The position numbers and the translations under genes were made by a program. Below, piece after piece: positions 21,886 to 33,553 of a stretch of 64,000 nucleotides of DNA. Origin of the DNA: Cyanobacteria bacterium FACHB-471 (lineage in GTDB: Bacteria; Cyanobacteriota; Cyanobacteriia; Elainellales; Elainellaceae); assembly GCA_014695345.1 (NCBI GenBank), contig JACJOC010000030.1:1-64000 (forward strand), given 5' to 3'. The first letter of the stretch is position 1. Each line of letters begins with the position of its first letter. Under the pieces are notes generated by a model, which searched no databases, was not told the DNA's origin, and saw only the letters and a list, made by a program, of their open reading frames with translations.

Positions 21886-21970
21886 CTTTTCCTGGACTCG
21901 ACTCTGCCATCCGGAGCAATTTGAACTCTGCAAGGTAGCATTTAGAGGACGCTACCTAACGCCAGCTCAC

Positions 21971-23395
21971 TTACTGTCGGGTTCCGCCTGGGGTCGGCGT
22001 CGGCTGGGTTTGCTGTCCAGTTCCACCTGGGGTCGGCTGTGGCTGGGTTTGCTGTCCAGTTCCGCCTTGAGGTGGCTGTGTTTGAGGCTGCTGTCCAGAG
22101 AGACAGTTGTACATCCGCAAGGTGGCAGCAGCAGCGTAGTTACGCAGTGCTTGACTATTGGGACTAAAGGCAGTTCCCGTCTCATTCACTGGAGAGGCAA
22201 CGCCGCAGTAACCCGACATCTGGCTGATCACTTGAGCAGCCCAGTGTCCAGAAGTATCAGAGAAGGTTCTGGGTTGCTGCGATTGGAGCTGAGTACCGCG
22301 TCCTTGCAGGTTTTGACCGTATTGAGCGGCTCTGCTCAGTACTGCAATCATTTCAGCCCGTGTAACAGGTTGGGTAGGACGGAAAGTACCGTCTTCGTAG
22401 CCGCTGATGATGTTGTTAGCACGAGCAAACTGAATCTTAGCGGCACTCCAACGAGACGCATCTACATCTGGATAAGGTCTGCTGCTGGTTTGGGTAGGAA
22501 TGGTCAGATTAAGATTAGGTACTCGATCCAGCGATTCTAGAACCAGTGAGACAAGCTGCTCACGGGTCAGAGGAGAACGTGGCCGGAAGGTGTTGTCTTC
22601 AGAGAAACCTGAGATGAAACCAACGTTGACAGCTCGCTGAATTTCGTTCGCATAGGTGTCGCCCGCAACATCACGGAAGGTTGTACCCGTGCCAGGAGTG
22701 CCCGTGCCTGGGGTACCTGTACCAGGAGTGCCTGTGCCGGGAGTGCCCGTGCCAGGAGTGCCCGTGCCTGGGGTACCTGTACCAGGAGTGCCTGTGCCGG
22801 GAGTGCCTGTACCCGGAGTAGTCAGCTGAGCAAGTGGGGTATCTGTGGCAATGTAGATGTGTCCTGTGCCTCTTCCCTGGAACGAGCGCTCAGCAAAGCG
22901 CCAGCCTGGGTTGAGGTTAAGCTTGGCAAAGCCAGTAGTTGTGCCGTTTGCTTTAGCGATTTCGATTTGCTGTCCACCTGGGCGGTTGGGTGCAGCGACC
23001 AAGGTCAGATCACCGCTTCGGTTGACGACGCGAAGGCTGTACTGCAAGCCCAAATCTTCACCTGCGGCACGAAGAGAGTAGCCGTTGCTATCTAGGCTAC
23101 GACCGCAGATTCCGGTGAAGTCAAAGTTAAGCCAGAGTGGGTCAACAATTGTTGGGTTTGAGCCTGACACACCCCAGCAGGGACGGGCATTGCTTCTCTG
23201 CCGCATGACGACGAGGTAGTGGGAAGTGCCAGCAGAAGTGCGGGGGGCGGCGACTGCAAGGAATTCTGTTTGGTTAACTTCTTGCTGCTCAAAGGTGACG
23301 GCGATCGCTGGGCTAGAGGGAATCGCAATGCTACCCATTGCAGTAGATGCAGCAATGGCAAGAGCAGCAATAGAACGGCGGATAGAGGATTTCAT
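21971..23395 (-). CDS. DUF3747 and SLH domain surface protein with GTPG repeats
   Basis: Secreted cell-wall-binding protein. Signal peptide at residues about 8-32, then an N-terminal DUF3747-like domain (about 33-188) as in other cyanobacterial SLH proteins. A flexible Gly-Thr-Pro repeat (TPGTG units, about 193-238) leads to two S-layer homology repeats (TFRDVAGDTYANEIQRAV and YPDVDASRWSAAKIQFA regions) and a partial third (FSDTSGHWAAQVI). The tail is rich in Gln, Thr, Pro and Gly. SLH repeats should anchor it to peptidoglycan-linked polymer. The repeat DNA has a 60-bp higher-order period. Monocistronic, ATG start. Confidence 0.85.
   Translation of the reverse strand: MKSSIRRSIAALAIAASTAMGSIAIPSSPAIAVTFEQQEVNQTEFLAVAAPRTSAGTSHYLVVMRQRSNARPCWGVSGSNPTIVDPLWLNFDFTGICGRSLDSNGYSLRAAGEDLGLQYSLRVVNRSGDLTLVAAPNRPGGQQIEIAKANGTTTGFAKLNLNPGWRFAERSFQGRGTGHIYIATDTPLAQLTTPGTGTPGTGTPGTGTPGTGTPGTGTPGTGTPGTGTPGTGTPGTGTTFRDVAGDTYANEIQRAVNVGFISGFSEDNTFRPRSPLTREQLVSLVLESLDRVPNLNLTIPTQTSSRPYPDVDASRWSAAKIQFARANNIISGYEDGTFRPTQPVTRAEMIAVLSRAAQYGQNLQGRGTQLQSQQPRTFSDTSGHWAAQVISQMSGYCGVASPVNETGTAFSPNSQALRNYAAAATLRMYNCLSGQQPQTQPPQGGTGQQTQPQPTPGGTGQQTQPTPTPGGTRQ
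22686..22811. repeat. In-gene tandem repeat with 60-bp higher-order unit
   Basis: The DNA encoding the TPGTG linker is a 15-bp repeat organised into a longer unit. 22686-22740 and 22746-22800 are identical base for base, whereas neighbouring 15-bp units differ at third positions. This indicates a recent duplication of a four-unit block, and copy number may vary between strains. Confidence 0.85.
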
Positions 23396-23820
23396 GAATT
23401 ACCTACGAGGATTCTGATTAGCTTGGAATCTCCAGAGAGACTGTGCAAACTCCCTGTTGGGTATAAAACTATTATTCTTCGGAAACCTCAGTTCTGAGGA
23501 GAAGGTGGTTGAAGTTCTGTGATTGTGCCAGTGAGCTTCATCCCACCTGATTCTAATAGATAGACCGGAGATCGGGTGATAACAATCATTTCAGCGTTTT
23601 GGAGAACTGGAAAAATAGCTTAATCAAATGGCTAAGTATGGGACAGTTTGAGATGTGTCCTGTAGGAAGAGCGAATCGCATTTAGCGACATTTATTACCG
23701 TCTCACTGAATGCTCTCTTTGCCCTCCTCCATACGGGTTAGCGAGATTGTGTGGTACAACACATCCAAACCGACGCGCTTGCGTATGAAGTAGAAGAATT
23801 CAGGATTTAGTGCCGTTAGC
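23396..23820. other. Intergenic region upstream of the SLH gene
   Basis: About 425 bases between two leftward genes. It should contain the SLH gene promoter. I see no open frame with coding character, no strong hairpin and no RNA gene. Confidence 0.5.
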
Positions 23821-24417
23821 TCAGAAAGAAGAACCAGGTTCTTTCAGAAACTCTGCTTCTTCGGGTGTGGTTTCTCGTCCCAAAATTTCGTTGCGGTGGG
23901 GAAACCGTCCGAAGCGTTTGACTATTGCCTGATGCCGGACTGCGTAAGAATAGGTATCTTCAAACTCTTTGCCCAACTCTGGATGGTCTGTGACGAGTTT
24001 GTGAAACAGAGCAACGCAATGGTTTTGGGGATCTAAGTTTTCGCTGTGTTCTAGCGGCAGGTAGAGAAAAAGCTGCTGGAGCGGTTTTAGCTGCTGGTGA
24101 AATTCTCTGGCGATCGCCCTTTGCGTTGTCTCCACAGCTTTTGAATCAGTCGCAAAAGCCCTGGGATCGCGGCGAAACATATTTCGGGGAAACTGATCTA
24201 GCACCAGGATTAATGCTAGACAGCCAGTGGGGGAATCTTGCCAGTGGTCAAGTTGATCTACTGCTGCTTGTTCGTAGGTGGTGAGGAAGCGATCGCGCAC
24301 CTGTTGATCAAACGCCGCATTCTTAATAAACCAGACCTTGCGCCATTGAGCATAGTTAGCCAATCCCGTTTGAGGGTCGGCAAACCAAAAGTTCAGCACG
24401 TCATCTATCTGTGCCAT
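23821..24417 (-). CDS. DUF924 family protein
   Basis: A 198-residue soluble, all-helical protein of the DUF924 family, related to tetratricopeptide-like folds. Typical blocks are visible: VLNFWFADP at the start, LALILVLDQFPRNMFR in the middle, YLPLEHSE, and HRNEILGRETTPEEAEFL at the end. Function is not known. Single leftward gene, ATG start, about 60 bases downstream of the small secreted protein gene. Confidence 0.88.
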   Translation of the reverse strand: MAQIDDVLNFWFADPQTGLANYAQWRKVWFIKNAAFDQQVRDRFLTTYEQAAVDQLDHWQDSPTGCLALILVLDQFPRNMFRRDPRAFATDSKAVETTQRAIAREFHQQLKPLQQLFLYLPLEHSENLDPQNHCVALFHKLVTDHPELGKEFEDTYSYAVRHQAIVKRFGRFPHRNEILGRETTPEEAEFLKEPGSSF

Positions 24418-24480
24418 AAAAGGGGAGATGCAAGGGTGGAAGGTGGGAGACGGCGACAGTAAGTATAGGAGCGTTGAGCC

Positions 24481-24858
24481 CTAGTTACTTTCTGCTGGAA
24501 TCTCGCTAGATTCTTGGGTTTCAGGCTGATTTTGGTTTTGCTCGCGCAAAAGTTCTAGTTGTCGAGTGCGAAAGTCTGTAGCTGCAGTCCCCAGGTTTTC
24601 TTGCTGCGTCGAGTTGTATTCAGATGGAGTGCGATCATTCCCTAGGGTGACCCGGTGGATCAGGTCAAGCAGACTACCAGACTGGTTGCCCCTGCCTGAG
24701 AAAGGATCAGAACTGTCGCCATCTCCACTCAGAGAGTTGTCTAACTGGTCAACCGTTTGAGCCACACTCGGTTGGAGGGATGCTGTAGCCAAAACTCCCA
24801 CAGCCATCAGCACAGCAGAAGTAGAACGCAGGAGTGTTATCAGAAATGCAGTCTTCAT
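24481..24858 (-). CDS. Small secreted protein of unknown function
   Basis: With ATG at 24858 as start the product has 125 residues: a signal peptide (TAFLITLLRSTSAVLMAVG then AQTVD, cut near 34), then a hydrophilic, Gln/Asn/Ser-rich chain ending in QNQNQPETQESS. An upstream TTG at 24879 would put seven residues before the signal, which is less likely. No domain is recognised; the mature part looks disordered apart from a short SLLDLIHRVTLG segment. Confidence 0.65.
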   Translation of the reverse strand: MKTAFLITLLRSTSAVLMAVGVLATASLQPSVAQTVDQLDNSLSGDGDSSDPFSGRGNQSGSLLDLIHRVTLGNDRTPSEYNSTQQENLGTAATDFRTRQLELLREQNQNQPETQESSEIPAESN

Positions 24859-24995
24859 AGAACTAAGCTCAAATACCAAATTGTTTGGTCAACACTATTC
24901 AAGACGGAAATTGATGAGAACTTGCTCCCAATTGGATAATTCACTCTGGCAACTTGCCCAAATTCGATCGCCCAATTTGAGGAAAGTCAGGAAAA

Positions 24996-25901
24996 TCAAG
25001 CAAAGGAACGGCGAAGCAGGGAACGGATGCTGAGGAGGGCGATCGCATCAAAACCTAGCAGCACAATCAGCGCCATTCCCAAGGTCACCTCTGCAAATGG
25101 AGCATGAAGAATGATGCTATTTAACGACCAATCGCTGTGGACATAGATATAGCGGATTGGTTCAATCGCGTAAGTGAGTGGATTCAGGCTAGCCACCGTC
25201 TGTAACCAACCTGGCATAAACTCTATCGGTGCTAAAGCAGTACTGGCAAACAGTAGCGGCAAGTTCGTGACAAAAATCACGGCAATGAGCTCAATGTGCC
25301 CCGGTAGCGCAAACGCTAGCCCCAGGCTCAATGCCGTTACACCCAGCACCAGCATCAGCACGATCGCCACTACCAGTCCTAGACCCAGCGGATTTGGCAA
25401 GCCTGCACCGAGAAATGCGCTAAGGGCAACGATCGAAACCGTCTGCACCATGCTTAGCGTCGCAATAAAGATTGCTGATGCCAAAACGATGGAAAAACGG
25501 GAAGCCAAGGGAGCAACCAGCAGCCGATTGAGGAAACCAAACTCGCGGTCGAACATGACTGGCAGTCCGGCGTTTAGCGCTCCACCAAAGGCGGTAAAGA
25601 CAATGATTCCTGCGCCCAAAAACTGCCCGTAGTTGGCACTCTCGCCAAATAATCCCTGAGGGACGTTTTGGAACAGTGCGCCAAATAGCACCAGCCACAT
25701 CAAAGGTTGAATAATTCCGGCAATCAGGGTGCTGGGTCGTCGCTGAAGCTGAATGAATAGCCGCCGTGTTAGCGCCAGCGTTTCCTGCACAAATTCGCCA
25801 GAGAAAAAGCCAGGAGGAGGAGCGATCGCCACTTTCGTACTCGATGGGCGAAGCTGAGGATTACTCAGTTCTGTGGGAGGTGGGGTAATCGTCTGACTCA
25901 T
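24996..25901 (-). CDS. ABC-2 type transporter permease (DrrB-like)
   Basis: Membrane subunit of an ABC-2 exporter with six hydrophobic segments after a cytoplasmic N-terminal region of about 45 residues. The ABC-2 signature region is visible at LPLLFASTALAPIEFMPGWLQTVASLNPLTYAIEPIRY. Such proteins export drugs, lipids or polysaccharides with a separate ATPase; in cyanobacteria related pairs are common. No ATPase gene is adjacent, so the partner must be encoded elsewhere. Substrate unknown. ATG start at 25901. Confidence 0.85.
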   Translation of the reverse strand: MSQTITPPPTELSNPQLRPSSTKVAIAPPPGFFSGEFVQETLALTRRLFIQLQRRPSTLIAGIIQPLMWLVLFGALFQNVPQGLFGESANYGQFLGAGIIVFTAFGGALNAGLPVMFDREFGFLNRLLVAPLASRFSIVLASAIFIATLSMVQTVSIVALSAFLGAGLPNPLGLGLVVAIVLMLVLGVTALSLGLAFALPGHIELIAVIFVTNLPLLFASTALAPIEFMPGWLQTVASLNPLTYAIEPIRYIYVHSDWSLNSIILHAPFAEVTLGMALIVLLGFDAIALLSIRSLLRRSFA

Positions 25902-26131
25902 GGGACTCCTCTATGTCGTTCAAGGCTTTTTATCTATGATTCAAAGCTTCTAGTTTGAGGCTCTGTTTTTACACTAGCGCATCTGACGTTGGGTTTTGCG
26001 TTGGCTAAGTCTCTCAAGGTTCAAGTCTCCCAAGTCCTGTATCTGCAATTCATTAACCTTTCCCTAAAGTTCTTTAGCTATGACTGAATAGAAAACATTC
26101 ATGTGCTTGTCATACGGGTTTAGGAGGTCAA

Positions 26132-27124
26132 ATGCGCCCACAGGCTTTTCTAATTGCTTTTTTGTCTGCTTTGGTGATCAGCCTGGGGCTGTGGACAGTT
26201 GCTCATCCATCGTTCAGTCAGCAAGGTGAAAGATTTTCTTTTGCATTGATTGGCGATCTGCCTTATGACAACGACCAGATTGAGAAATTTGGCAACTTGA
26301 TTGACCAGATTAACCAATCAGATTCCGAATTTGTGGTGCACGATGGCGACTTCAAGAGCGGCACTGATTTGTGCAGTGATGAGGTATTCGCCCAGCGCAA
26401 GCAGCTGTTTGATCGATTTGAGTCGCCTTTTGTCTATATTCCTGGTGACAACGAGTGGACGGACTGCTACCGCGAAAGCAATGGCAGCTATGACCCGCTT
26501 GAACGACTGGAAAAATTTCGTGACCTGTTTACTCAAGGCAACCAGAGTTTGGGCAAACGAACGCTGCATCTGACTCGACAAAGCGAAAATTCCCAATTTG
26601 CGAAGTTCCGAGAGAATGTGCGCTGGAGCTATGGTGACGTGCTGTTTGTCGGGCTAAATGTGACAGGAAGCAACAACGGCTTTGGACGCACACCAGAGGG
26701 CGATGCTGAATATTGGGAACGGAATACAGCCAATTTAGCTTGGATGCAGGAGGCTTTTACGTTGTCCAAGCAAAATGGCGATCGCGGCATTATGTTAATC
26801 ATCCAGGCAAACCCAAACTTTGAGCTAGAGCCAGCTAAACGCACCGGCTTCAACGATTTCCTTAGCGCTTTAGAAACTGAAACCTTTAACTTTCGGGGGC
26901 AAGTGGTTCTGGTTCACGGAGACAGCCACTACTTTCGAATTGACAAACCGCTGCTGCACTTCACCCATGAAGGAATTCCGCCATTGGAGAACTTCACCCG
27001 TGTTGAAACCTTCGGCTCCCCCAACGTTCACTGGCTACGCGCCACCGTAAACGCCTCCAACCCCAATCTATTCGAGTTTGAGCAAATGATCGTTGACGCA
27101 AATCGAAGCCGTTTCTCAATTTAG
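26132..27124 (+). CDS. Secreted calcineurin-like metallophosphoesterase
   Basis: Signal peptide or anchor at residues about 5-25, then a metallophosphoesterase fold. Metal-binding motifs are GDLPYD (41-46), HDGDFKSG (70-77), PGDNEW (104-109, in the place of the usual GNHE) and VHGDSHYF near 260. Cyanobacterial proteins of this kind act outside the cytoplasm, but the substrate is unknown. A strong AGGAGG-like site lies a few bases before the ATG. Followed by two tandem terminator-bearing repeats. Confidence 0.8.
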   Translation: MRPQAFLIAFLSALVISLGLWTVAHPSFSQQGERFSFALIGDLPYDNDQIEKFGNLIDQINQSDSEFVVHDGDFKSGTDLCSDEVFAQRKQLFDRFESPFVYIPGDNEWTDCYRESNGSYDPLERLEKFRDLFTQGNQSLGKRTLHLTRQSENSQFAKFRENVRWSYGDVLFVGLNVTGSNNGFGRTPEGDAEYWERNTANLAWMQEAFTLSKQNGDRGIMLIIQANPNFELEPAKRTGFNDFLSALETETFNFRGQVVLVHGDSHYFRIDKPLLHFTHEGIPPLENFTRVETFGSPNVHWLRATVNASNPNLFEFEQMIVDANRSRFSI

Positions 27125-27218
27125 AGACGACTATTCTTCTGCTTTGACAATGTTAGGCGCAACACGGGTTGGGAACCATAAGCTTACGTTTTTGATTTGT
27201 CATGGGTTTTCTCTCTAG

Positions 27219-27244
27219 ACCTGGCAGCAATGTCAGGTTTTTTT
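27219..27244 (+). terminator. Terminator in element copy 1
   Basis: Hairpin ACCTGGCA/TGTCAGGT (one G-T pair) with loop GCAA, followed by seven T. First terminator after the phosphoesterase gene. Confidence 0.8.
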
Positions 27245-27340
27245 GTGGGCGCTCGCTGTGAGTTAGCCTTGCAGTCTGGGAACCATAAACTCACGTTTTC
27301 GATGTGTCATTGGAAATTCCTTGCAAGAACTACACTCTCG

Positions 27341-27366
27341 ACCTGGCAGCGATGCTAGGTCTTTTT
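27341..27366 (+). terminator. Terminator in element copy 2
   Basis: Hairpin ACCTGGCA/TGCTAGGT (one G-T pair) with loop GCGA, followed by CTTTTT. It repeats the layout of the terminator 122 bases upstream. Confidence 0.75.
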
Positions 27367-27416
27367 GTTGTCAAAGAATATGATCAGGGCAATTCAGTTA
27401 CCTGCCGCCCAAACTC

Positions 27417-27526
27417 ATGAACATTGACCCCAATTTTTGGATTGGTTGCGTTGGGGCAGCCGCTCCAGAAGCTTTGAGGCTCTATAATCTGGATCGCAGC
27501 CCGTATTTCGCTGGTCGTGGGGCTAT
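27417..27526 (+). pseudogene. Probable frameshifted N-terminus of the following gene
   Basis: From ATG 27417 the sequence encodes MNIDPNFWIGCVGAAAPEA and on to LRLYNL, then continues out of frame to a stop near 27527. The following frame, open from 27488 without a normal start, reads SQPVFRWSWGYLIFS into the downstream protein. Restoring one base at CTGGATCGCAG (27489-27499) to give CTGCGATCGCAG joins the two as NLRSQPVF and recreates a HIP1 octamer. I infer a single-base deletion in the gene or in the assembly. Confidence 0.6.
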
Positions 27527-28171
27527 TTGATCTTTTCCATCCCTTTTTTGATCGTGGGCGGATTCATCGCCTGGGTGCTGGAGCCATCGACTCGATGGGC
27601 TGCCTTCTACTCTGGGTTAACTGCCCCGGTGCTGCTCACCACCGTCCTGAAGGACACCGCCAAGGCGCAAAAGGAATTGGAGGAAGTCGAGAAGGAACGA
27701 GATCAAATTCAGCGGGAGCGGGAAGAACTTCAGGCTAGTAATCAGGAGTTCAAGCAAACCATAGAGGAGCTGAAACAGAAGTTGGAGCGATCGCAGCAAG
27801 AGACGACTTTACCATCAGAACGCATTCCTCCAGTTCCTTTGCCACCATCAGTCAGTCCTTCGATTCCACCACTCCCCAGTCAAATACCTACTGAGCCTGT
27901 TCCATTAATATCCCCCCAGGCACCCCAGCGATCGCCCCGAAAAACATCGGCTTCATTCTCGTTTGCGGTTTCGATCCTGATTGGATTCCTCTCTATTCTG
28001 TTTATCAGACCTTTTATCCTAAACGAGCAGAACAGCAGTTACTCCACCGCTGAGCAACCCCAACCTGACTGGCAACCCATTATTTTGATTGTTGTTTTGG
28101 GAGCAGCGATCGCCCTCTTCTTCTATCTCAGACGCAATCGCTGGTTCAAGGAATTCCTCAAAGGAATATAG
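27527..28171 (+). CDS. Membrane protein with coiled coil, probably 5'-truncated by frameshift
   Basis: 214 residues if started at TTG 27527, with no good ribosome site. A membrane helix (about 3-18) and a further hydrophobic stretch near 27-42 lead into a long Glu/Lys/Gln coiled coil (KAQKELEEVEKERDQIQ to LKQKLERSQQET, about 45-92). A Pro-rich linker follows, then two membrane helices near 145-165 and 182-200. The probable true start is ATG 27417, in another frame (see the adjacent entry), giving about 250 residues. Function unknown. It may be a pseudogene, or expressed in shortened form. Confidence 0.65.
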   Translation: MIFSIPFLIVGGFIAWVLEPSTRWAAFYSGLTAPVLLTTVLKDTAKAQKELEEVEKERDQIQREREELQASNQEFKQTIEELKQKLERSQQETTLPSERIPPVPLPPSVSPSIPPLPSQIPTEPVPLISPQAPQRSPRKTSASFSFAVSILIGFLSILFIRPFILNEQNSSYSTAEQPQPDWQPIILIVVLGAAIALFFYLRRNRWFKEFLKGI

Positions 28172-28362
28172 GACTGCGGAATATGGAACTGCTCTCTTCT
28201 CTAATTGACTGACAAAAACTATTGCGTAGGTAGGGTGGAGCAAAGCGCAACCCAACGCTTGAGATTCACTGTGCGTACTACTAGCTGCTCAACTGCACGA
28301 TTGGAGCCTCGAAACCCCGATCTCTTCAACCTCCTGCCAAACCTTGTAGGGAACAGCGCCAA

Positions 28363-28389
28363 ATAAAAAAGCGGGCAAGATGCCCGCTT
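28363..28389 (-). terminator. Rho-independent terminator of typA
   Basis: A 9-bp perfect stem (AAGCGGGCA/TGCCCGCTT, loop AGA). Read leftward it is followed by TTTTTT, 22 bases past the typA stop codon. Confidence 0.88.
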
Positions 28390-28411
28390 CACAAAGTCTA
28401 TCGACTGATTT

Positions 28412-30202
28412 TTAGCGCTTCGCTAGCTTCTTAGACATCTTGCGCAGACGAATTGACTCTGGAGTGACTTCCAGCAGTTCATCGGGTCCGATGTATTCCA
28501 GCGCGCGTTCCAGGCTCATGTCAACCGGAGTCTGAAGCTGCACCAGTTCTTCACCGCCCGAGGCGCGGTGGTTAGTCAACTGTTTGGTTTTGCAAACGTT
28601 GATTTCCAGGTCTTGAGGACGGTTGTTCTCACCGATAATCATGCCTTTGTAGACCTTGGTTCCGGGTGAGATAAAGAATACGCCTCGATCCTCAGCGTTC
28701 TTCATGGCATAGAAGGTGGAAACGCCTTCCTCAAAGGAAATCAACACACCATTGCGACGAGTATCCACATCGCCAGAGAGCGGACGATAATCGAGGAAGC
28801 TGTGGCTCATGATGCCGTCACCACGAGTCAGACGCATAAATTCGCCCCGGAAGCCGATTAAGCCTCGCGCCGGGATGACAAACTCTAGCTGAGTGCGACC
28901 GTTGCCGCCCACCTGCATGTCCTGCATTTCGCCTCGACGCTGACCCAGACGCTCGATACAGCCGCCGACTCCATCTTCAGGAACGTCTAGCACAAGTAGC
29001 TCAAATGGCTCACAGGGCTGACCGTTGACCTCGCGGTAAATGACCTGTGGCTGAGAAACCTGGAACTCGTAGCCTTCTCGCCGCATGGTTTCGATCAAGA
29101 TGCCTAAGTGAAGTTCACCCCGACCCGCAACCGCAATTTTATCTGGAGAGTCGGTTTCTTCGACTCGCAGCGCAACGTTGGTTTCCAGTTCTCGGAAGAG
29201 GCGATCGCGCACCTGACGAGACGTAACGTAAGTTCCCTCTTGTCCCGCAAACGGCGAATCGTTCACTGAGAAAGTCATTTGCAGAGTTGGCTCATCCACT
29301 TTGATCAGCGGCAAAGCCTGTGGCTCATTCGGGCAGGTGATTGTTTCACCGATGTTGGCATTGGCAAACCCAGCGACCGCAACGATGTTGCCTGCCGAAG
29401 CCTCCTGCAATTCGATGCGCTTCAGTCCATCAAAGCCCAGCAGCTTCGTCACTTTTGCCTTGACGACTTCACCCGTTTCAGTCACGAGTGCCGCCTGCTG
29501 ACCTGCCTGGATGGTGCCGTTGTGAATTTTGCCGATGATGATTCGACCCAGATATTCTGAATAGTCCAGCGTCGTCACCTGAAGCTGCAAAGGCTTCGCT
29601 GGATCGCCAACCGGAGCGGGGACGTACTGCAAAATTGCCTCAAACATGGGCTGCATGTCTACGCCTTCTTCTTCCAGAGTGTTTTTGGCGTAGCCTTCTA
29701 GCCCAGAAGCAAACAGGTAAGGGAAATCGCACTGGTCGTCATCTGCACCCAACTCTAGGAACAGATCCAGCACTTTGTCGATCGCCCCATGCGGGTCAGC
29801 TTGGGGACGGTCAATTTTATTCACCACCACAATTGGGCGCAAGCCCTTTTCCAGAGCCTTTTTCAACACAAATCGGGTTTGAGGCATTGGGCCTTCGTTG
29901 GCATCCACAATTAGGATGCAGCCGTCTACCATGCCCAACACGCGCTCCACTTCGCCACCAAAGTCAGCGTGACCAGGGGTGTCTACAATGTTGATCAGCG
30001 TTTCCTTGAAACGAACGGCTGTATTTTTTGACAGAATGGTGATGCCCCGCTCCCGTTCCAGGGTGTTGGAGTCCATGACGCAGTCTGGAACCTCTTCCCC
30101 TTCGCGAAATGTGCCAGACTGCTTGAGCAGCGCATCAACTAGAGTTGTTTTGCCATGATCAACGTGAGCAATGATGGCGACATTGCGAATCGGCAGAGTC
30201 AT
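28412..30202 (-). CDS. typA: Ribosome-associated translational GTPase TypA/BipA
   Basis: EF-G-like GTPase that binds ribosomes and helps 50S assembly and stress adaptation. G1 AHVDHGKT is at residues 12-19, then [13 protein letters not shown] (switch I), [12 protein letters not shown] (G3) and NKIDRPQA (G4). The later domains II, III, V and the unique C-terminal domain are all present ([26 protein letters not shown]). 596 residues is the standard length. Start ATG 30202; monocistronic with its own terminator. Confidence 0.97.
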
Positions 30203-30406
30203 AAGAGAATTCCAGAGAGATTGAATAAGAGATAAGCTGCGCTTAATAGCTTCTTAACAAAGTTTTCCTAGTCGATCGGGATCGGGTGCTGTAAAGAAGC
30301 CGTAATGATCTTATCTTAATATTTCTTGGAATAACTGAGTGAATTTAGGGGCGATCGCCTTTAGCCAATCCCACGATAATCTCGATTGGCATCTGCAACG
30401 AGCAAA

Positions 30407-30442
30407 CTTGGCTGTCAGAAGCAGGAGCTTGGCTGTCAGAAG
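30407..30442 (+). repeat. 15-bp direct repeat upstream of pyrR
   Basis: CTTGGCTGTCAGAAG occurs at 30407-30421 and again at 30428-30442, six bases apart, ending about 45 bases before the pyrR start. It could be a double protein-binding site or a simple slippage duplication. Confidence 0.5.
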
Positions 30443-30486
30443 ATTGCTAAAATAATCAGCCTTCCCAACTCCTAACCCCTGACCCC

Positions 30487-31026
30487 ATGCCCCCAGAAGT
30501 TGTTGAAATTCTCTCCGCCGACGAACTGCGTCGTACCCTGACTCGGCTAGCCTCTCAAATCGTTGAACGGGCTGGAGATTTGTCGAGACTCATGCTGTTA
30601 GGGATCCACACTAAAGGCGTACCACTTGCAGAAACGCTAGCTCGACAAATTGAAGTCCTGGAACAAGTGGAAGTTCCCGTTGGTGCAATAGATATTACCT
30701 TCTATCGGGATGACTTAGACACCATTGGAGTACGCACACCTGCAAAAACGGAGCTTCCCTTTGATTTGTCGGGCAAAACCGTTGTGTTAGTTGATGACGT
30801 GATCTTCAAAGGGCGAACCATTCGGGCGGCGTTAAATGCAGTAAACGATTACGGTAGACCAGAAGCAATTTGGCTGGCAGTACTGGTTGATCGCGGGCAT
30901 CGAGAGCTACCAATTCACCCTGATTTCACTGGAAAAAAATTGCCTACCGCCAAAGAAGAACAGGTGAAAGTTTATCTACAAGAAATTGATGGGCGCGATG
31001 CAGTGGAATTAATCACTCGCAGCTAA
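30487..31026 (+). CDS. pyrR: PyrR: pyrimidine regulator / uracil phosphoribosyltransferase
   Basis: Type I phosphoribosyltransferase fold with the PRPP-binding motif [13 protein letters not shown] at residues 99-111, and typical [10 protein letters not shown] and [13 protein letters not shown] segments. In Bacillus PyrR binds pyr mRNA and also makes UMP from uracil and PRPP. In cyanobacteria no pyr operon follows, so the salvage activity may be the main role. No pyrimidine gene is nearby here. ATG start; 179 residues is normal. Confidence 0.93.
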
Positions 31027-31873
31027 TTACCGCTCGAATAGGTGAGTGTGAGAAGCTATCTCGTCTGTCTAAATTAACAAGATAATTGTTCCCAAAAAAC
31101 AAAAAGTTTTGGCAACCCGTTCACATCATTTTGTTGCCGAACGAATCATATCAATTAGTTAGACGAACGGAGCATCAACAAAGTTCCTGCTAACTCTAAA
31201 TATCACTCATTTTTGGCAATCCTTGACATTATTTACACGGGTAGAATATAACGTTAGACGTGTATAACGCATCTAACCTCTAAGGGTGAAATTGAATACC
31301 CATTCTTTCAATGCATCCGCCAGGTCTAGGCACAATCGTTTACCAACCAATACTTCTTGGTTAAACATGACTAATGCTCAATAGCTTTTGTGGAGATGGC
31401 ATGTATCACATCTTTGCAAGTTCAAAGATTGCTTGTCCAAGAAAGATTCGAGCAAATTCTAACCAGTCCTGTACTTGAGTTCTATACTCTGAACCCAAAC
31501 GGCGATTCTGCGAAAGTTTTCAGCACATTCATCACTCATCTATCAGTGGCTCCTGATGGGGAATCTACCTGAAATTAAGGTTTCAGGAGCCGGTGTTTTG
31601 CGTCTAATTCAGCTTTAGTGAGGGTGGAAATAAGGGAGGTGGCGATCGCCATTTCTCCTTACACTTCCAACACCTCCAGTTGTGTTCAGCCCATCTACCA
31701 GAAACAGTGCTGAACCCGATATTTCACGGCTAAGTCGCTGTGCTTTGTTGCAGCAGTCTGTAAAGACACATGTTTTGCAGATGTTTTGAGTACCGAACTT
31801 AACCCCGGTCGCTCAGCTTTAGCCTGCTCATTGCACAACATTCCAACAATCTAATCATCAATAGGAGCTCAAC
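31027..31873 (+). other. Long non-coding stretch upstream of the GH5 gene
   Basis: About 850 bases with no recognised gene. It holds a good promoter-like pair at 31223-31252, and an inverted repeat GGCTCCTGA/TCAGGAGCC at 31548-31591. A short rightward frame (31390-31572, GTG start, 60 codons) has no recognised product and no good ribosome site. If the promoter is used, the GH5 transcript has a leader of about 610 bases, or a separate short RNA ends near the inverted repeat. Confidence 0.5.
31223..31252 (+). promoter_or_regulatory. Candidate sigma-70-type promoter
   Basis: TTGACA (31223-31228) and TATAAC (31247-31252) with an 18-base spacer. It points at the GH5 gene, 620 bases downstream. 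TATAACG recurs 20 bases on, within a short repeat. Called by pattern only. Confidence 0.4.
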
Positions 31874-33553
31874 ATGCAATCCAGCAAAGGTTTTGGACAA
31901 AAGAACCAGCAACCTTTAGGAACTGCATCACCAGACATTACAGCATCCCCTTTGAGTACTCCAAAATACTCACCATCAATACACAGACAACGTTCCAGCG
32001 ATTCTTTGATGGCTTCTACGAGCCAAACCTCATCTCAAAGATTTGCTGCTGCTGCAACCACTCCAGCCGGTAGGTCAGACTCCTCAAATGACTTTAGGGT
32101 GGTTGGCACCAAAATCTATGACCCAAACGGACGTGAGTTTATTGCCAAAGGGGTCAACATTAACGGCCCAGGCTATGGATGGCCTGGCAAAACACCTGAA
32201 CAGGTAGACAACATTAAACGTTGGGGATTTAACTCAATTCGATTAAATGTTCGTCAGCTCGGTTTGGACAACAAACAAACCTATGCTGAAAACGGCACCA
32301 TTGATGCGATCGTCGAGAAATTCACCAGTCAGCGCATTGTGGTGATGATTGAACCGCACGAACGCACCGGGAAATGGTACAGCTCAGATGAATTGAACAA
32401 GCTGGTCAACTGGCATAAAGGATTAGCCAGCAAATACAAAGACAATCCCTATGTCTGGCTCAACGTTTCTAATGAACCTGGAGGCTCTGACAGCGGCAGC
32501 TCCAGCGCAGTGAGCAAATATGTACAGCAAAACACTACCGTGATCAAAGCAATTCGCTCTACTGGCTTTGATAACCCGATCGTCGTAGATGGTTGGTCTT
32601 GGGGGCAAGACAGCGGTTCCTGGAACAGTAGCCCGGTGAGTGAAAGCAAATCTGCCATTCTTTCTTTAGGACAAAAACTGTTATCTGTTGATCCGGACAA
32701 AAACACAGTTTTTTCCCTGCACACATACGACCAGTGGAAGACGAACACTCAAGCAAAAATGGATGATTTCATTGACCGAGTTCACGCCAAAGGACTTGCC
32801 CTGGTTGTGGGGGAATATGGTGCTGAAAACGGTAGCTCAGGCAGATTTAAGGAGACAGTGAGTGGTGTTTTGCCGGTTGTTCAAAAGCGAGAGGTGGGAC
32901 GCTTTGCCTGGGCTTGGCAGGGAGGCGATGCCTTTGACCTGACCACTGGTGGTGGGGGACACAAAGCTAACTTTAGTTCTAGTGGTTCAATGCCAGATAA
33001 TTTAAGCTGGTTTGGACAGCAGGTGTGGAAAGATGCTCGTCGCGCTGAGAGCCTACAGACGCGTCCTGGCAACACCCCTGCGCCTGCACCCCTGCCAACT
33101 CCTACACCAGTACCCAATCCAACACCTAGTCCAGTTCCCAGTCCTTCTCCATCAAGTAGCTTGCGCTATGAGGCTGAGAATATGTCCAAATCAGGCTACT
33201 CAGCTGAAAGCTTGTCTTCGGCTTCCGCTCAAAAACTAGTTAAACTAACCGGGACAAAAGGCAGCTTGAGCCAAACGTTTAAGGGCAGTTCTGGTACCTA
33301 TGACGTTGTGATGGGCTATTTCGACGAAAATGATGGTCGTTCTACCCTCAAGCTAGACTTTGCCGCAAAGGATTTTACTCTGAGCTTTGACCAGAATTTG
33401 TCTAGCAATAAAGCAAGCTCGTCTAGCTTTGTGCGACGTAATTTAGGTTCTGTGCAACTAAAGGAGGGAGAGACATTTAAGCTGGAAGGTATTCGAGATG
33501 GGGCTGAGTATGCTCGCTTTGACTATCTTGAGTTTGTCAAAAAGCCTGCCTGA
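31874..33553 (+). CDS. GH5 family glycanase (cellulase-like) with C-terminal carbohydrate-binding module
   Basis: Retaining glycoside hydrolase. The catalytic domain covers about residues 73-392, with acid/base Glu201 in VSNEPG, nucleophile Glu314 in VVGEYGAE and substrate-site HTY near 283-285. A Pro/Thr/Ser linker (about 398-430) leads to a beta-sandwich module (YEAENMSKSGY onward) of CBM35/CBM6 type. The N-terminal 70 residues are polar, Ser/Gln/Thr-rich, with no Sec signal peptide, which is odd for a polysaccharide-degrading enzyme. A ribosome site GGAG lies 8 bases before the ATG. Likely acts on beta-glucan or mannan, perhaps the cell's own matrix; substrate is inferred. Confidence 0.85.
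   Translation: MQSSKGFGQKNQQPLGTASPDITASPLSTPKYSPSIHRQRSSDSLMASTSQTSSQRFAAAATTPAGRSDSSNDFRVVGTKIYDPNGREFIAKGVNINGPGYGWPGKTPEQVDNIKRWGFNSIRLNVRQLGLDNKQTYAENGTIDAIVEKFTSQRIVVMIEPHERTGKWYSSDELNKLVNWHKGLASKYKDNPYVWLNVSNEPGGSDSGSSSAVSKYVQQNTTVIKAIRSTGFDNPIVVDGWSWGQDSGSWNSSPVSESKSAILSLGQKLLSVDPDKNTVFSLHTYDQWKTNTQAKMDDFIDRVHAKGLALVVGEYGAENGSSGRFKETVSGVLPVVQKREVGRFAWAWQGGDAFDLTTGGGGHKANFSSSGSMPDNLSWFGQQVWKDARRAESLQTRPGNTPAPAPLPTPTPVPNPTPSPVPSPSPSSSLRYEAENMSKSGYSAESLSSASAQKLVKLTGTKGSLSQTFKGSSGTYDVVMGYFDENDGRSTLKLDFAAKDFTLSFDQNLSSNKASSSSFVRRNLGSVQLKEGETFKLEGIRDGAEYARFDYLEFVKKPA

Follow-up and report, generated by a model that had tools for sequence, protein, structure and literature searches.

The region 27171-27367 of the window (the whole 64,000-nucleotide stretch analysed here) contains a two-block module, a 33-base box followed by an intrinsic terminator, which is present twice in tandem. 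With a probability of roughly 0.4, we tentatively read it as a genus-restricted tandem double terminator that would insulate the putative membrane-protein gene downstream. Two further genomes of the same genus carry the module: a MAG (G001, 83% complete) has one intact copy, and G002 has a fourth copy with a broken terminator. The features at the locus are as follows.

26132..27124, + strand: upstream gene, 330 aa (open reading frame)
27171..27203, + strand: box, copy 1 (GGGAACCATAAGCTTACGTTTTTGATTTGTCAT; repeat comparison and pattern match)
27175..27203, - strand: leftward sigma70-like site in box 1 (ATGACA, 17, TATGGT; consensus match only)
27217..27246, + strand: intrinsic terminator, copy 1 (10-pair stem, loop GCAA, T-run)
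27278..27310, + strand: box, copy 2 (GGGAACCATAAACTCACGTTTTCGATGTGTCAT; repeat comparison and pattern match)
27282..27310, - strand: leftward sigma70-like site in box 2 (ATGACA, 17, TATGGT; consensus match only)
27292..27306, + strand: possible small hairpin in box 2 (CACGU...AUGUG; folding)
27340..27367, + strand: intrinsic terminator, copy 2 (9-pair stem, loop GCGA, T-run)
27379..27384, + strand: candidate -10 of the downstream gene (TATGAT; by eye, inferred)
27417..28171, + strand: downstream gene (ATG at 27417; frame broken near 27491 relative to the G001 homologue)

The two boxes agree at 29 of 33 positions and lie within a 37-base repeat (27170-27206 and 27277-27313, spacing 107) that is 86% identical, while the terminators lie in 34-base stretches (27213-27246 and 27335-27368, spacing 122) that are 85% identical. 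The first-pass annotation had reported two copies that share a common string and end in near-identical intrinsic terminators, and both are present exactly as it described. Box and terminator are joined by a linker of 13 bases in copy 1 and 29 bases in copy 2, and 31 bases separate the copy 1 terminator from box 2. Ungapped agreement of the copies is 6/30 for the 30 bases 5′ of the boxes and 7/20 for the 20 bases 3′ of the terminators; 25/29 agreement 5′ of the boxes is reached only at the cost of 24 gap columns. This arrangement bears on the proposal that the copies are twin small RNA genes, each box and terminator giving a trans-acting RNA of about 76 and 91 bases, respectively, with the box as pairing region, which we consider somewhat unlikely. 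Size and layout would fit such genes, as would the limitation of ungapped likeness to box and terminator; the joint duplication of both blocks over unequal linkers fits them too and weakens the double-terminator reading. The separation of just 31 bases and the poor ungapped agreement upstream argue against them.

The module occupies one place in its own genome. A 33-mer pattern (<=3 mismatches) matched twice in the window, at the two copies, and in none of 100 shuffles, its fit to both copies being by construction as it was built from them. A search of the 7.15-Mb genome with the whole 217 bases (E <=0.001) returned no second place, and the 18-mer core has two exact matches there, both at the locus and none elsewhere; with up to 2 mismatches it gave 18 and 17 matches per strand, against higher counts of 26 and 45 for backwards-pattern controls. 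A mobile or repeated element was rejected in view of this single place, and an assembly artefact is unlikely because the copies differ from each other. Viral contigs contained no exact match to one 22-base pattern, and plasmids and phages gave one 27-base match each (E 0.9 and E 0.3), from which no species was accepted. Rfam covariance models had no match in the window at gathering score and none for 27000-27550 at E <=5, and a known RNA family was rejected accordingly.

Between 26900 and 27700, three terminator-like sites were found (shuffle mean 0.8), two of which are the copies. In each copy a predicted G+C-rich stem-loop is directly followed by a T-run, and the hairpins folded alone reach -12.9 and -15.6 kcal/mol. 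Both stems are intact: the three stem differences between the copies all fall in the 3′ arm, with pairing kept. The G001 stem is intact as well, with two pairs altered on both sides. G002, whose downstream gene is a truncated remnant, has lost 3 of the 9 stem pairs and has an interrupted T-run; its hairpin folds at -2.0 kcal/mol as opposed to -12.9 to -15.6 kcal/mol in the other three sequences. The double-terminator reading is favoured because the stems are kept in both copies, because the G001 pairs are changed on both sides, and because stem and T-run are broken where the downstream gene is a remnant. Tandem Rho-independent terminators have in common with it the stem and T-run, the doubling and the location between the end of one gene and the start of the next; the present pair differs in that each has a 33-base box on its 5′ side, co-duplicated with it.

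RNAalifold on three copies returned the terminator and a small hairpin in the box. Folded alone, the box hairpin reaches -3.2 kcal/mol in copy 2, -5.8 in G001 and -6.4 in G002, which favours twin small RNA genes, but the copy 1 hairpin has no stable fold, which does not. Across the four copies, 91% of cells pair in the proposed structure compared with 20–48% when partners are slid, again in favour of an RNA. Against this, covariation in the stem, suggested in the first-pass annotation as a check on an RNA, was not above chance: depending on the measure, 105–186 of 500 column shuffles reached the observed values.

In the double-terminator reading, rightward transcripts, coming from the 330-aa gene here and from menF in G001, would pass through the box and stop at either terminator. 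They would so be kept out of the membrane-protein gene, which probably has its own promoter after the second terminator. The box would be the last conserved part of a 3′ untranslated RNA (a weak hairpin and UCAU), or else a DNA site duplicated with the terminator. The tandem copies, their predicted terminator structures, the fixed place before one gene and the broken terminator beside a remnant of that gene are observed; termination in the cell, insulation as its purpose and a promoter belonging to the downstream gene are inferred.

The upstream gene, which we take to be metallophosphoesterase-like, has no Pfam family match. A remnant of its start only is found in G002, and G001 has no match to it. 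Its spread is patchy, with no match in the other 35 genomes of the family (E 1e-10) and presence in 31 of 388 genomes of the class, its own included. The downstream gene starts about 50 bases past the second terminator; by our reading of the sequence it would encode a protein with membrane segments and coiled coil, and its Pfam matches are all below cut-offs. Its homologue in G001 is 330 aa long. In the window the first 25 codons lie in one frame and the remainder in another, with the break near 27491, where G001 carries the octamer GCGATCGC and the window is one base short; the frameshift is either real or a sequencing error. Beyond this gene lies typA, on the opposite strand. The names typA, menF, menA and ABC transporter are assumed from the translations.

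In all three species the element stands directly before the same membrane-protein gene, or its remnant in G002, and the content upstream varies. The intact G001 copy lies between menF and the downstream gene, after which come a 158-aa frame and typA. In G002, menF adjoins typA with no element between them, and the fourth copy was found by a covariance model (R1) built from the other three (39 bits, rough E 0.0017 per genome, 36 genomes searched). One flank of this copy matches the leader and roughly the opening 12 codons of the downstream gene; the other aligns to the sequence upstream of the window ABC gene and stops near 26180, a short way into the 330-aa gene. Both neighbouring genes in G002 are thus remnants, and the flanks support the copy. 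The next gene leftwards in G002 is the ABC gene, about 300 bases off, and LSU and 5S rRNA lie beyond the element remnant; in the window's own genome, a 5S-like sequence (by eye) adjoins menF. One G002 contig matches window positions 191-26165 in collinear pieces, and a second one, as well as G001, is collinear with 28363-33553, so the element lies at a rearrangement breakpoint (window 26165-28363 versus G002). The double-terminator reading is favoured because the upstream gene varies by species (330-aa gene; menF) and the downstream gene is constant.

Fourfold sites of typA, the downstream gene and menF agree between the window genome and G001 at 308 of 462 positions (67%). Against this level we set copy 2 and its surroundings, counting aligned positions only and giving P as an uncorrected binomial. 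The box core agrees with G001 at 20/23 positions (1 gap column; P 0.027), the whole box at 24/28 (11 gap columns), the linker at 19/22 (12 gap columns), the terminator at 22/27 (0 gap columns; P 0.072), the leader from terminator to start codon at 42/50 (15 gap columns; P 0.005), the gene start at 60/64 (0 gap columns; P 2e-7) and the upstream sequence at 21/30 (14 gap columns). Gapped figures flatter, so on this aligned-position measure the linker shows no clear drop in conservation. These counts suggest that the box core is probably constrained between the intact loci. Its agreement above the fourfold level bears out the earlier observation that conservation extends upstream of the hairpin rather than being of the hairpin only; it also speaks for small RNA genes and weakens the double-terminator reading, since a plain terminator needs no conserved 33-base box. 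The leader is probably constrained likewise, and the typA terminator region also exceeds the fourfold level, so conservation of the box core is not special.

As a control, five other terminator-like sites in the window were scored over 45 bases upstream plus the hairpin. The typA site gave 37/45 and 19/19 against G001 (P 0.016 and 0.0005) and 36/45 and 18/19 against G002, and site 31556 gave 41/44 and 37/40 equally in both. Against G002, site 21101 scored 33/45 and 37/40, site 21847 scored 15/45 and 29/40, and site 26105, which overlaps the start of the 330-aa gene and is an unlikely terminator, scored 36/45 and 30/41. The comparison leaves out three sites at 126-160 that aligned in part, copy 1, no part of which aligned, and 27258, with 8 aligned bases. 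On the same measure copy 2 scored 30/45 and 17/22, within the range of the five, and conservation of the element is not unusual among them. This favours the double-terminator reading and, as conservation is no higher than that of the leader or of other terminator-like sites, counts against small RNA genes; conservation 5′ of a terminator is, on its own, weak small-RNA evidence. Between G001 and G002 the element and leader agree at 108 of 149 positions (72.5%), near the 147 of 195 (75%) for typA fourfold sites, as would be expected of a decaying copy. For menF, 217 of 229 fourfold sites agree between the same two genomes (95%, versus 75% for typA; loci L035, L042 and L043), a mismatch that may reflect either mosaic genomes or a mixed assembly.

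A consensus promoter scan of 26900-27700 found no forward site and two leftward sites, a single site per box, where shuffles averaged 0.3 in all. The best forward scores in the four sequences had shuffle fractions of 0.93, 0.29, 0.33 and 0.93, none beyond chance. The lack of a forward score beyond shuffles favours the double-terminator reading, although a good -10 (TACAAT) 16 bases 5′ of the element in G001, itself within shuffles (fraction 0.33), weakens it. For twin small RNA genes, the missing forward signal near either copy is unfavourable, as is the absence of the GGGAACCATAA half from the intact G001 copy. The first-pass annotation is partly supported overall: its tandem duplication and terminators stand, and conservation reaches beyond the hairpin in a second genome.

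The leftward sites raise the alternative that the box is a leftward sigma70-type promoter, either for an antisense RNA against the upstream gene or formerly for the leftward ABC gene, the terminator having been co-duplicated; we hold this to be improbable. ATGACA-17-TATGGT is present in both copies and GTGCCA-17-TATGAT in G002, and 2.5–3% of simple shuffles reach the best leftward score in these three sequences. The 17-base spacer contains all 4 box differences, leaving the hexamers identical (chance 0.058), which favours a leftward promoter slightly, and in G002 the ABC gene is the next gene leftwards, about 300 bases away. However, the three matches are homologous and hence not independent, the -10 is lost in G001 (shuffle fraction 0.57), three hexamer bases are altered in G002, and in the window the nearest leftward gene, the ABC transporter, lies past the entire 330-aa gene. 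A promoter would also leave the association of terminators with the box unexplained, just as the double-terminator reading is weakened because it leaves the leftward match unexplained.

Quite improbable, too, is a premature-termination leader, in which the transcript of the downstream gene would start 5′ of the box and a signal would choose between terminator and read-through. The position of the element directly before the gene or its remnant in all three species, its decay beside the remnant and the conserved stretch from terminator to start codon are consistent with such a leader. Pairing of the 5′ arm of the terminator with upstream sequence was, however, better than shuffles in 0/4 sequences (fractions 0.42–0.89), so that no antiterminator is conserved and an attenuator of this type was rejected. 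Nor is there a conserved leader peptide: an NHKLT frame is shared by both window copies and G002, whereas G001 carries an extra base and, just upstream, an in-frame stop. A small protein was rejected on the same grounds. The lack of an Rfam match also counts against a leader.

The element had been likened to the NsiR1 tandem small RNAs. As described in PMC9045159, the NsiR1 array of Nostoc sp. PCC 7120 consists of 12 tandem direct repeats with individual promoters, upstream of hetF; PMC6133370 gives the promoter motif DIF1 as TCCGGA. Tandem direct repeats of about small-RNA size and a cyanobacterial host are common to both, but there are two copies here and 12 in that account, and no individual promoters were found here. 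The exact TCCGGA motif is absent from 21915-32692, and the adjacent frames read (by eye) as an ABC transporter, the 330-aa gene, a membrane gene and TypA, none of them as hetF. The likeness fails on promoter and on neighbouring gene.

The four-copy covariance model (R2) matched 7 of 388 genomes of the class: the three of the genus and, at E 0.009–0.048, G370, G161, G274 and G355. These four weak matches, fewer than the E-values alone predict across 388 genomes, were not accepted as members, nor were weak R1 matches in G007 (E 0.17) and at a second place in G002 (E 0.73). The 388 genomes were drawn from a larger group, and the R2 search ran under stricter filters by which weak members could be missed. 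A search of relatives matched 5 of 60 genomes. Besides the window's own genome and G001, these were G027, where the match falls within a long coding frame, and G044 and G046, where it covers 25 bases at the terminator and at the terminator tail, respectively; none of the last three was accepted. Pattern searches matched 2 of 36 genomes of the order (G000 and G001) and 11 stretches in a genome contig collection, one of them cyanobacterial (L035), with no further species accepted. R1 had no match over 34 chosen loci (2 of the downstream gene, 16 of 27 of menF outside the genus and 16 of 24 of the 330-aa gene outside the window's own genome). Over 28 ABC-gene loci it had one match, at E 1.5, not accepted; 30 loci were fetched, the other two being those of the window's own genome and G002, and three more gene-bearing genomes gave no locus. 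With no member accepted beyond same-genus genomes among the 388, the element appears genus-restricted. The covariance search across cyanobacteria proposed earlier has added the G002 copy and no accepted member outside the genus, the latter being a point against small RNA genes.

G370 and G355, which belong to one genus in another cyanobacterial family, each hold an array of three tandem units (L134:930-1600 and L137:1055-1840, respectively) between genes that, from translations, we take to be MIF-like and U32-peptidase-like. All six units conserve ATGTGTAA and have the terminator CCCCGGCA..GGGG, and 4 of 6 folds show a hairpin upstream of it. TTTA direct repeats about 11 bases apart (by eye), presumably Pho-box-like, lie upstream, and there are five GGTGATN4RTCACA palindromes that we assume to be CRP-like; Rfam gave no match at E <=1. 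The array resembles the window element in having tandem terminator-ended units, most with a hairpin before the terminator, and similar terminator loops. The loop is the main sequence likeness, and two G370 units repeat over 150 bases including the upstream sequence, unlike the window element. We do not regard the two as homologous; the array is a good candidate for true tandem small RNA genes, and a better one than the window element.

It is also conceivable, if unlikely, that a genus-restricted tandem small RNA pair or twin terminator leader was selected while the uncharacterised membrane-protein gene was present and is decaying where that gene was lost. If the RNA reading were true, the locus would offer a recently arisen pair of small RNAs, and how it was gained and decays could be traced across three related species. 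If instead the plain double-terminator reading is true, it would illustrate on a small scale how a terminator and its upstream sequence are copied together as one unit. The site of the duplication is a rearranged region of the chromosome within one cyanobacterial genus, beside an rRNA operon in one genome.
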